34,407 nucleotides of DNA, from positions 1-34,407 of the IMG/VR virus record IMGVR_UViG_3300020439_000034; one strand, written 5' to 3'. Of this stretch, positions 14,083 to 16,155 are shown one piece after another. Numbering within the stretch: position 1 is the first letter of the stretch; each line of letters begins with the position of its first letter. The translations under genes and the position numbers were made by a program. Below the pieces are notes generated by a model that ran no database searches, was not told the origin of the DNA, and worked only from the letters and a program-made list of their open reading frames with translations. The stretch is from a virus.

Positions 14083-14322
14083 ATGGCACGTTATGACTAT
14101 AAGTGTTCTAAATGTGAGCACTTATTTGAGGTGCAGCATTCAATACACGAAGACCCAGTAATTAATTGTGAAAAATGTAAAGCAATATCTAATAGACAAA
14201 TTAGCTCTAAAGTTCATTTATATGGAACTGTTGGTATTGATTGGAACACTGACCCTAATAAAGCTTCTAAGTCTATGACAGATAGAGCAAAGAAATCTTC
14301 AAAACGTAAAGTTAAGTTCTAA
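14083..14322 (+). CDS. FmdB-type zinc-ribbon protein
   Basis: 79 residues. The start M-A-R-Y-D-Y-K-C-S-K-C-E-H-L-F-E-V-Q-H-S followed by C-E-K-C and a short I-S-S-K-V strand is the FmdB/putative regulatory zinc-ribbon pattern: two Cys-x2-Cys pairs, the second with a Lys-rich tail. These small proteins are common in bacteria and phages and have no settled role; transcriptional regulation is often proposed. The C-terminus is strongly basic (K-K-S-S-K-R-K-V-K-F). The ATG abuts the previous TAA, so it is coupled. Its stop overlaps the stop of the converging minus-strand operon. Confidence 0.85.
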   Translation: MARYDYKCSKCEHLFEVQHSIHEDPVINCEKCKAISNRQISSKVHLYGTVGIDWNTDPNKASKSMTDRAKKSSKRKVKF

Positions 14323-14492
14323 TCGTCTCCAGCCCAATTAGGATTACCTCTATATGTATCAAGTATTTTTGCTTGATATAAATCATCCATAGTTAAGTAT
14401 ATTTTTTTAGCTGCAATATAACCTTTAGTGATTAACCACTTATAGGGTGCAGTAAAGACTCTATCCTCCCAATATAAAAATTTATCTTTCAA
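14319..14492 (-). CDS. Small hypothetical protein, TTG start, 57 aa
   Basis: Last gene of the leftward operon. The only likely start in the open frame is TTG at 14492, which overlaps the end of the previous gene by 11 bases. The product has F-L-Y-W-E-D-R-V-F, I-A-A-K-K-I-Y-L and a C-terminal G-N-P-N-W-A-G-D-D. The latter end is also seen in phage proteins that carry a short Trp motif, but no family can be assigned. It converges on the zinc-ribbon gene with a two-base stop overlap. Confidence 0.5.
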   Translation of the reverse strand: MKDKFLYWEDRVFTAPYKWLITKGYIAAKKIYLTMDDLYQAKILDTYRGNPNWAGDD

Positions 14493-14583
14493 GAGTAGAG
14501 CTTTCTCTTAAATTTTCGCATATTGCACATAAAATCTTGCCTTCGGGACAAGGCCTTCCACAATCTAAACATTCATACATCAT
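14482..14583 (-). CDS. Zinc-finger-like microprotein, 33 aa
   Basis: 33 residues starting M-M-Y-E-C-L-D-C-G-R-P-C and continuing I-L-C-A-I-C-E. Two Cys-x2-Cys knuckles with a further Cys form a complete treble-type zinc site in a peptide this short. It begins inside the end of the SET-domain gene (11-base overlap) and shares 11 bases with the gene after it, which argues that it is translated. Function unknown; a protein-interaction or metal-site partner is possible. Confidence 0.6.
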   Translation of the reverse strand: MMYECLDCGRPCPEGKILCAICENLRESSTLER

Positions 14584-14878
14584 AAAACGTATACCTCAGT
14601 GTTAATTCTTCGTTTGGCATTATATCTTTTATTGTAGTTAAAAATAATCTAGGTCCTATTGATATCAATTCACAGTTTGGGTCTTTACTATGGTTTATAA
14701 ATCCACCAAGCGGTGTTCTTAGATAACCGTGTAAAGCTTCGGGGTCTTTTTTATGTGTCAAACCTAAATTAGTTCCAGCCACAATAATTTGTGTTGAAAA
14801 CAATCCTAACCCTTCTATTACAGAACCACCTATTGTAACTGAATCGGGTAAGGGTCTATAAGGTTTATCTTTTTCCAT
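14573..14878 (-). CDS. Minimal SET-domain protein (lysine methyltransferase-like)
   Basis: 101 residues, nearly all SET domain. G-x-G-L-F-S (residues 23-28) matches the N-terminal cofactor-binding strand. N-H-S-K-D-P-N-C (62-69) is the hallmark N-H-S-x-x-P-N-C of SET enzymes. I-M-P-N-E-E-L-T-L-R-Y (86-96) matches the final G-E-E-L-x-x-x-Y, with Tyr96 as the expected catalytic tyrosine and Asn replacing Gly. There is no pre-SET or post-SET region. The size is similar to the chlorella-virus vSET protein (about 119 residues). It would transfer methyl from S-adenosylmethionine to protein lysine. It lies between two zinc-finger microproteins, overlapping both, in the lysis operon. Substrate unknown; a structural, non-enzymatic use is possible. 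Confidence 0.8.
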   Translation of the reverse strand: MEKDKPYRPLPDSVTIGGSVIEGLGLFSTQIIVAGTNLGLTHKKDPEALHGYLRTPLGGFINHSKDPNCELISIGPRLFLTTIKDIMPNEELTLRYTFYDV

Positions 14879-14975
14879 TTTCTCTCTCAGCTAACTTGAA
14901 GTAACAAGGGTCGCATATTATAAGAGAGTCTTTTGTATCTAAGGGATTTTTACAAGTACGACAAATGTAACTCAT
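14865..14975 (-). CDS. Zinc-ribbon microprotein, 36 aa
   Basis: 36 residues with M-S-Y-I-C-R-T-C-K-N and I-C-D-P-C-Y-F-K, a Cys-x2-Cys pair on each side of a short loop, enough for one zinc ribbon. Its ATG overlaps the TGA of the previous gene, and its end overlaps the SET gene start by 14 bases, so expression is coupled to the SET protein. It could supply in trans the zinc-binding element that the SET domain lacks; that is speculation. Confidence 0.6.
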   Translation of the reverse strand: MSYICRTCKNPLDTKDSLIICDPCYFKLAERENGKR

Positions 14976-15094
14976 CGTAATTGTTGTCCACAAGGCTTAC
15001 AATAAACTCCATCATTGTCTTTTACTGTTGTGTTAGTTGTTCTATAAACAAATCCATCGTGTTGACAAGGGTCATTTTTATTCGAACCATTCAC
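14972..15094 (-). CDS. Cys/His microprotein, GTG start, 40 aa
   Basis: 40 residues from GTG, nine bases after GGAGG. D-P-C-Q-H-D-G and V-Y-C-K-P-C-G give a Cys-x-His plus Cys-x2-Cys arrangement around a Thr/Asn-rich hairpin, a plausible zinc site. It begins within the previous gene and ends in an ATGA overlap with the next. No homologue recognised. Confidence 0.55.
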   Translation of the reverse strand: MNGSNKNDPCQHDGFVYRTTNTTVKDNDGVYCKPCGQQLR

Positions 15095-15227
15095 TTGGAA
15101 AACCCTCCTTTCTTTTTTCTAGCTCCCATATCCTCATTTCGTCATAGTATTCTAATCTTCCAGCCATTTCATCAAAAAACTGACTTAATGATTCAAAAAT
15201 ACTTATTAGTATTCTTCTGAACGCCAT
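15078..15227 (-). CDS. Small hypothetical protein after lysozyme, 49 aa
   Basis: 49 residues; the ATG follows GGGAGAAAAG inside the end of the lysozyme gene. The first 18 residues are hydrophobic and amphipathic (A-F-R-R-I-L-I-S-I-F-E-S-L). The rest is charged, with E-K-R-K-E-G. It is too short and polar for a classic holin with two membrane helices, but an N-terminal membrane-bound helix next to an endolysin makes a lysis role worth testing. Confidence 0.5.
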   Translation of the reverse strand: MAFRRILISIFESLSQFFDEMAGRLEYYDEMRIWELEKRKEGFPSEWFE

Positions 15228-15745
15228 CTTTTCTCCCATTTCTTTGCATCACCCCAGCACCATTTGCTAGAATTCCAATCTCTCCAAGTAAGTTTACTAT
15301 ATGTATCTTCAGCAAGCAACGATGCCATCTTGATATTGTAATAAGGAACAAACTGGACACGACGAGCTGACATACCCTCATCCTCTACTTTGATGAGTGA
15401 ACCGAAATACGGTTGCCCGTATCTCAGTATTATCCACTCATCCCACCTAGGCATATCGTGCTTTTCAGCAATCCAATTCCACGTCGAAGGTATAAACTGC
15501 ATAACTCCCGAATCATCTGCAGATTTTCTATATGCAGTTGATTTACCTCGACTTTCACACCAGCCAATTCTGACCGCAGTGTATAAATTTTCTTCATCAA
15601 AATGTTCAACGTAATGAGGTAAATGTTGAACCATAGTAGTAGGAACTTTGTCCAAGCAACCTTTTATTTCACTCATATTGCTTGAAGAGGGTAAAACATC
15701 CCCACTGCTAAAACTAGCTAAAAATATTAAACAACTTGTAATCAT
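15206..15745 (-). CDS. Lysozyme/transglycosylase-like endolysin with signal sequence
   Basis: 179 residues. Residues 1-14 are a hydrophobic secretion signal (M-I-T-S-C-L-I-F-L-A-S). The enzyme region has the SLT/goose-lysozyme pattern: R-I-G-W-C-E64-S-R-G with the probable catalytic Glu64, D-D-S-G-V-M-Q-F-I-P-S-T-W (about 77-89), and a later Tyr-rich helix. It would cut peptidoglycan glycan strands. The signal suggests export by the host Sec pathway instead of a holin. It could also act from the virion, since the gene lies inside the connector block, but its strand and promoter are separate. It is probably leaderless: a shared-motif promoter ends six bases before its ATG. Confidence 0.8.
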   Translation of the reverse strand: MITSCLIFLASFSSGDVLPSSSNMSEIKGCLDKVPTTMVQHLPHYVEHFDEENLYTAVRIGWCESRGKSTAYRKSADDSGVMQFIPSTWNWIAEKHDMPRWDEWIILRYGQPYFGSLIKVEDEGMSARRVQFVPYYNIKMASLLAEDTYSKLTWRDWNSSKWCWGDAKKWEKRWRSEEY

Positions 15746-15751
15746 ACTGCT

Positions 15752-15780
15752 AACTTATATGACAGATACGATTAAGTCAA
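15752..15780 (-). promoter_or_regulatory. Shared-motif promoter of lysozyme operon
   Basis: On the minus strand TTGACT (15780-15775), 17 bases, then TAAGTT (15757-15752), with TGTCATA just before the -10 (GTCA 15763-15760). The ATG follows after exactly six bases, so the mRNA should be leaderless. It is the only minus-strand copy of the shared element. Confidence 0.65.
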
Positions 15781-16007
15781 TTACTCAATTTTTTTTCTGC
15801 ATCAGCAATAGCAGATTCTTTAGTATGGCCAACTCCGTAAGCAATTTGGGACATCCCTATGTTGCCTCTTTCATTGGTATACTTTTTAAATATCTGCGCA
15901 TCAAAGCTAAGCATAAATTCGTTGTAGTCAACGTTATACACATAGCCATCCTTTTCGAACTGGTCGCTCAAAAGGGCTGGTGCATCATCTTGTCTAATGT
16001 CTACCAT
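15777..16007 (-). CDS. Hypothetical protein, 76 aa
   Basis: 76 residues. Beta-like N-terminal half (K-D-G-Y-V-Y-N-V-D-Y-N-E-F) and a C-terminal helix (T-K-E-S-A-I-A-D-A-E-K-K-L). The pattern H-T-K-E-S-A-I-A-D-A resembles the small double-stranded-RNA-binding-like fold seen in various short phage proteins, but this is only shape. No signal or metal site. It precedes the lysozyme by 31 bases and has its own extended -10 promoter, with an mRNA leader of about two bases. Confidence 0.6.
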   Translation of the reverse strand: MVDIRQDDAPALLSDQFEKDGYVYNVDYNEFMLSFDAQIFKKYTNERGNIGMSQIAYGVGHTKESAIADAEKKLSN

Positions 16008-16016
16008 TATGTGTTA

Positions 16017-16025
16017 ATTATACCA
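16017..16025 (-). promoter_or_regulatory. Extended -10 promoter, consensus TATAAT
   Basis: Minus-strand TGGTATAAT, with a perfect -10 and the TG-N extension, nine bases before the ATG at 16007. No Shine-Dalgarno lies between, so the message is almost leaderless. Confidence 0.6.
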
Positions 16026-16155
16026 TAAATCGTTATTTGAAATCACAAAATAGTAAAATTTAGAAAAAAAAATTTAAAATTTTTTATTAGGCCTATAAAC
16101 ATTGAGCTTTTTGGCAGAAAATAAGTAAATATTGCTGTTTTTAGACTTTTGGTAT

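Follow-up and report, generated by a model that had tools for sequence, protein, structure and literature searches.

Why would a phage pack a lysozyme, a SET-domain protein and a series of cysteine-paired microproteins into one operon of overlapping genes, and do these proteins act as one unit? The question is raised by the minus-strand operon at positions 14319-16007 of the IMG/VR record IMGVR_UViG_3300020439_000034, a stretch of 34,407 nt (in its full length hereafter the window). It contains, in reading order, g1, the lysozyme gene, g3, g4, g5, SET, g7 and g8. An initial annotation had read these genes as a single translationally coupled machine. In relatives, g1 and the lysozyme gene form a fixed core, while the 3' half of the operon is an exchangeable cargo slot. 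We consider it likely that the locus is a late lysis operon that carries exchangeable accessory genes.

The relatives were collected by a capsid search, which gave 58 loci; the gene census covers the 34 loci with enough sequence, not all of which are independent lineages. The placement of the cassette is common to these 34, in the same orientation, beside the gene of an FmdB-family zinc ribbon (ZnR) and before the Phage_HCP (head completion) gene. Both g1 and the lysozyme gene were found in 33 of them, the exception (L115; loci are numbered with the prefix L) ending before the lysozyme would be reached. Downstream, g3 occurs in 22 relatives, SET in 17, g7 in 8 and g5 in 5. None of the 34 has g4, the only other copy of which lies in the truncated locus L098, and none has a true g8, the single match to the g8 profile (L127) covering a shared tail only. 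Several relatives without SET carry MT-A70 and C5 DNA methyltransferases in the slot, and 14 encode a different Cys/His microprotein. This protein (RxCxxxxCxxxLSKYNxxxxCxxHAP...RxRG), which has no Pfam match, is encoded beside SET or in its place; slot carriers are L127, L128, L136-L139, L141, L143-L145 and L151.

Exchange within the slot becomes visible when L142 is compared with L096. The two are 95-100% identical in the left flank and about 92-100% identical from the end of g5 through g3, the lysozyme gene, g1 and beyond, but identity drops to about 42-88% across ZnR, g7 and SET, the break coinciding with the overlap of g5 and SET; the difference includes a 0.7-kb DUF6065-like insertion. 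ZnR-g7-SET has been swapped as a block between near-identical phages, which speaks against a fixed unit. In about ten distinct clade members SET starts 14 bases inside the preceding gene, which thereby gains an ENGKR-like tail, though the upstream genes differ. Because the break falls at the g5/SET overlap and the same 14-base start recurs behind differing genes, the overlap junction acts as an exchange point, and this counts against a single obligate machine. When the window is compared with its closest cassette relative, L098, g4-g5-SET-g7 is 85-93% identical and the flanks mostly 63-88%; L098 has no g8. The DUF6065-like gene (weak match, about 245 amino acids) is present at L142:10471-11199, L105:8724-9464 and L092:9164-9907, inserted between a 61-amino-acid connector-region gene and the ZnR gene; in L142 it lies within the exchanged SET block.

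The slot resembles phage moron or accessory-gene hot spots in having its own promoter (a conserved extended -10, as read from the sequence), opposite orientation and exchangeable content, here seen as exchange between relatives. It differs from them in being built on the conserved g1-lysozyme core with overlapping start-stop junctions, and an own terminator was not found. The overlaps are a sign of compact packing and probably of coupled translation rather than of a fixed complex.

All eight open reading frames lie where the initial annotation had placed them and have exactly the lengths given there (Table 1). A gap of 31 bases separates g1 from the lysozyme gene; from there on every gene overlaps its neighbour, by 22 (lysozyme/g3), 17 (g3/g4), 4 (g4/g5), 14 (g5/SET), 11 (SET/g7) and 11 bases (g7/g8), with no non-coding base from the lysozyme gene through g8. 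The chain of overlaps described earlier therefore stands, its range being 4-22 and not 2-22 bases. The stop of g8 in turn overlaps that of the convergent ZnR gene by 4 bases. Open reading frames of at least 33 amino acids cover 0.98 of the minus strand here and 0.28 of the opposite strand; shuffled DNA averages 0.29 and peaks at 0.68, and none of 2000 first-order Markov shuffles matches 0.98. For g1, g4, g5, SET and g7, pairwise nonsynonymous divergence (dN) is lower than synonymous divergence (dS) by factors that range from several to more than ten; g3 evolves faster, with dN still below dS. These patterns indicate that the small frames are genes, with purifying selection on g1, g3, g4, g5, SET and g7.

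Table 1. Features of the minus-strand operon and its boundaries in the window.
Feature	Position	Strand	Description
g1	15777..16007	-	76 aa (amino acids), first operon gene
SLT-type lysozyme, probable endolysin	15206..15745	-	179 aa, PF01464 above cutoff
g3	15078..15227	-	49 aa; profile matches at locus in 22/34 relatives
g4	14972..15094	-	40 aa, GTG start, CxH...CxxC
g5	14865..14975	-	36 aa, two CxxC
mini-SET, predicted protein-lysine methyltransferase	14573..14878	-	101 aa, PF00856
g7	14482..14583	-	33 aa, two CxxC
g8	14319..14492	-	57 aa, TTG start, last gene
FmdB-family zinc ribbon (ZnR), convergent boundary gene	14083..14322	+	79 aa; TIGR02605 1.9e-12, PF09723 7.8e-11
promoter-like element upstream of g1	16008..16035	-	extended -10 TGGTATAAT

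The packing of the frames as a single overlapping operon was thus borne out, and the operon has its own conserved promoter. In the window the extended -10 TGGTATAAT stops 9 bases short of the g1 ATG, which would make the transcript leaderless or nearly so. Nearly all of 14 compared sequences show a recognisable extended -10 of the TGnTATAAT type ahead of g1; the outer clade has a short 5' untranslated region with AGGAGG before g1. A -35/-10 scan missed the g1 promoter and returned fewer promoter-like sites than in shuffles. Just upstream of the -10, the near relatives L103 and L110 carry a palindrome, TTTGTTA-N7-TAACAAA, which is degenerate in the window and is a possible operator candidate.

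The paired cysteines reported in three microproteins were confirmed: g5 and g7 each contain two CxxC motifs and g4 a single CxxC together with CxH, and these pairs may bind zinc. The start of g4, a GTG, is preceded by AAAGGAGGG, and its two known copies (window and L098) are 87% identical with dS 0.30 and dN 0.05. The C-terminus of g3 has a conserved WExxKRxEGFPxEWFE motif; an ATG four codons upstream would make a protein of 53 amino acids. For g5 the start is an ATG inside a longer TTG reading frame. All eight relatives that carry g7 also carry SET, and dN of g7 is well below dS. Eleven IMG/VR relatives of g8, at first sight the least convincing of the frames because of its TTG start, were found elsewhere, in differing contexts and starting mostly with ATG; nine are complete or almost so, with 75-84% identity. 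In the WhiB-carrying phages L213 and L214, g5 also adjoins g8; in both (L213:2501-3394) a run of consecutive genes ahead of the terminase comprises g8, one for a g5-like zinc microprotein, an HNH-like gene and one for an FmdB-type zinc ribbon.

That lysozyme, SET and zinc microproteins form one translationally coupled machine could be argued from the unbroken overlaps, the single promoter and the constant company of g7 with SET in its clade. It is largely refuted by the relatives that have both lysozyme and SET and often lack g3, g4, g5, g7 or g8, the very outcome that the initial annotation had named as refuting it, and it fits neither the block exchange nor the phages in which g8 and g5 occur without SET. 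In other phages, no member of the g3, g4, g5 or g7 families was seen next to SET, and a tie between zinc microproteins and SET is not seen outside the window's phage group. We now regard a coupled machine as barely probable.

What, then, is the SET protein? The 101-amino-acid product is a SET domain as originally proposed, by Pfam profile, motifs and predicted fold. It matches PF00856 at 1.6e-10 (41.8 bits, cutoff 22.4) over the C-terminal part of the profile. Eight residues are invariant (G25, G39, R54, N62, H63, N68, E91 and Y96, in 32-84 sequences), G23 is conserved in 96%, and the S-adenosylmethionine-binding GxG and NHS motifs and the catalytic Tyr are intact. The AlphaFold2 (AF2) model has a mean predicted local distance difference test (pLDDT) score of 90.7, and its closest solved fold is vSET (PBCV-1 A612L, an H3K27 methyltransferase; PDB 3kma/1n3j; template modelling score 0.72). 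Both are short, viral, stand-alone SET proteins with intact core motifs (profile E 4.8e-7), vSET having 119 amino acids and sharing 24% identity with the mini-SET. Unlike vSET, the mini-SET belongs to phages, and their bacterial hosts lack canonical histones. The bacterial SET proteins tabulated in PMC3980110 are similar in placing a SET domain in bacteria; they modify eukaryotic chromatin, and phages are unmentioned in the text of that paper. The literature searched for phage SET enzymes yielded no more than a brief mention in a paper on a Stenotrophomonas phage. The mini-SET is most likely an active protein-lysine methyltransferase with a host or phage protein as target.

The mini-SET family is widespread, with at least 600 matching stretches in IMG/VR. 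Homologues in annotated phages include PSSM7_204 of P-SSM7 beside nrdB, CPXG_00131 of P-RSM6 beside baseplate genes, and Kolga gp27; PHROG 28741 and the cyanophage and pelagiphage homologues belong to the same family, stand in other neighbourhoods and are annotated as hypothetical proteins. A further 49 loci from metagenome-assembled genomes (MAGs) or single cells carry it, with copies that appear to be chromosomal in SAR86, a SAR92-type bacterium and marine Flavobacteriaceae; no histone-like neighbours were seen in the five genomic loci read. Longer mini-SET proteins of about 122-125 amino acids occur, apparently on the chromosome, in L173, L181, L183 and similar Flavobacteriaceae/Bacteroidetes, and in the loci read these flavobacterial genes are unlinked to phage genes.

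Turning to its neighbours, the gene of a four-cysteine SLT lysozyme precedes SET on the same strand, at a distance of 0.07-1.3 kb, in several other lineages. With this lysozyme family as query, 28 of 36 deduplicated loci had SET no more than 2.5 kb downstream; these loci form one large group with essentially no flanking genes in common with the window. Two further lysozyme-SET contexts (L008/L010/L052 and L070) have only few genes in common with it. The loci were grouped by average linkage on shared genes, single linkage being uninformative. Another 26 sampled SET loci have no such lysozyme and mixed neighbours. The initial annotation had looked to a conserved gene order across other phages; since SET closely follows a related lysozyme gene, at 0.07-1.6 kb and on one strand, in three or four groups with few or no other detectable genes in common, lysozyme-then-SET is the part of that order which recurs. 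This proximity is suggestive of an association and no proof of common function, because linkage within a group may be inherited.

The same order would be expected if lysozyme and SET were a functional pair, in which SET methylates a lysine of the lysozyme, of a holin-like protein or of a target in wall synthesis and thereby times lysis, with the microproteins as dispensable helpers. The 28 lysozyme-query loci and the presence of SET in half of the window's own group fit this idea. However, the other half of that group does without SET, the 26 other sampled SET loci do without this lysozyme, the SET genes of P-SSM7 and P-RSM6 have quite different neighbours, marine bacterial contigs carry SET without nearby lysis genes, and vertical inheritance may explain the linkage inside each group. 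A functional pair is thus unlikely in our judgement. A more specific form of it appears very unlikely, namely that SET and the four-cysteine SLT endolysin are a conserved lysis-control pair which, through methylation of cytosolic lysines or wall-precursor amino groups, sets when or how well the wall is cut, with g7 as an in-trans zinc cofactor of SET in the window clade.

A different role is suggested by the DNA methyltransferases, which not only fill the slot of SET-less relatives but are also among the commonest neighbours of SET elsewhere. SET could be a counter-defence or host-takeover gene standing where sister phages have a DNA methyltransferase, its nearness to the lysozyme being incidental. 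Against this, SET enzymes modify protein lysines and not DNA, and the PADLOC profiles, a library of defence and not anti-defence models, match none of the eight operon proteins. We regard this explanation as possible but doubtful.

The fixed core can be described more closely for the lysozyme than for g1. PF01464 (SLT transglycosylase) matches all 14 aligned lysozymes, in which E64, the catalytic Glu, and the cysteines 5, 30, 63 and 163 are invariant. The protein shares the catalytic Glu and the Q-F...TW core motifs with SLT/transglycosylase endolysins and differs from them in its invariant cysteines in the N-terminus and beside the catalytic Glu. The N-terminus is weakly hydrophobic (Kyte-Doolittle value 1.4 across 19 residues). 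The SLT lysozymes of separate phage groups (window; L014, L010, L021, L052, L072, L077) have the same two-cysteine pattern: one invariant Cys falls within a weakly hydrophobic N-terminal stretch, and a second Cys immediately precedes the catalytic Glu. This pattern recalls the disulfide-switched SAR (signal-arrest-release) endolysin of phage P1. A resuscitation-promoting factor (PF06737) was rejected, as only one of the 14 members matches, and weakly (E 0.02); the lysozyme profile found no useful match and no close relative in the PDB. For g1 a beta-beta-beta-beta-alpha fold is predicted (AF2 pLDDT 83), which could not be assigned to a known fold: there is no significant PDB match, a Pur-alpha-like one reaching E 0.066 only. 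In L135 the lysozyme gene is followed by a strongly hydrophobic frame of 50 amino acids that overlaps the lysozyme stop by 22 bases, as g3 does in the window; its product is a holin candidate.

The host is probably a member of the Actinomycetota. The phages that have g8 and g5 in common with the window carry WhiB, a regulator described as confined to Actinobacteria (and mycobacteriophages) and used to assign a host to an Actinomarina phage fragment (PMC3861242). Capsid matches in annotated phages are largely to actinophages, except for 184 Salinibacter records. No WhiB-like frame was noticed in the window itself, and capsid searches of actinobacterial MAG samples and Pelagibacteraceae gave distant matches only (28-39%), the two actinobacterial MAG class samples drawing the same genomes.

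Taken as a late lysis operon with exchangeable accessory genes, the locus would be a late operon with its own promoter, running leftward amid rightward genes for the head-tail connector; the genome is marine and siphophage-like and probably that of an actinobacterial phage. Its fixed job would be lysis, the extended -10 promoter driving g1 and an exported SLT lysozyme. The slot behind the lysozyme would hold short overlapping genes and a mini-SET or DNA methyltransferases swapped between phages, with at least one exchange breakpoint at a gene-overlap junction, and coupled translation across the overlaps would keep its content expressed. Late in infection, SET would methylate a target in the host cytosol, a protein of either the host or the phage, and the Cys-pair microproteins would most likely be zinc-ribbon or knuckle regulators that travel independently. 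Several observations weigh against this reading. The lysozyme-SET linkage across groups, which reaches 28 of 36 loci in one of them, is stronger than random cargo would give, g7 is always accompanied by SET (8 of 8), and a terminator scan gave no site at the 14319 (g8/ZnR) end. Moreover, hydropathy pointed to no holin in the window cassette, so it is the lysozyme by itself that gives the operon its lysis label.

For the biology of these phages, the centre of interest moves from the microproteins to an abundant, unstudied phage SET beside one type of endolysin. The locus illustrates how micro-genes are swapped at overlapping start-stop junctions in compact phage genomes. Work on protein-lysine methylation by SET proteins has centred on eukaryotes and on the bacterial effectors directed against them; the mini-SET, minimal and apparently intact, is present in very many marine phages and some marine bacterial genomes. 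Its substrate, once found, would reveal a new way for phages to modify their hosts.

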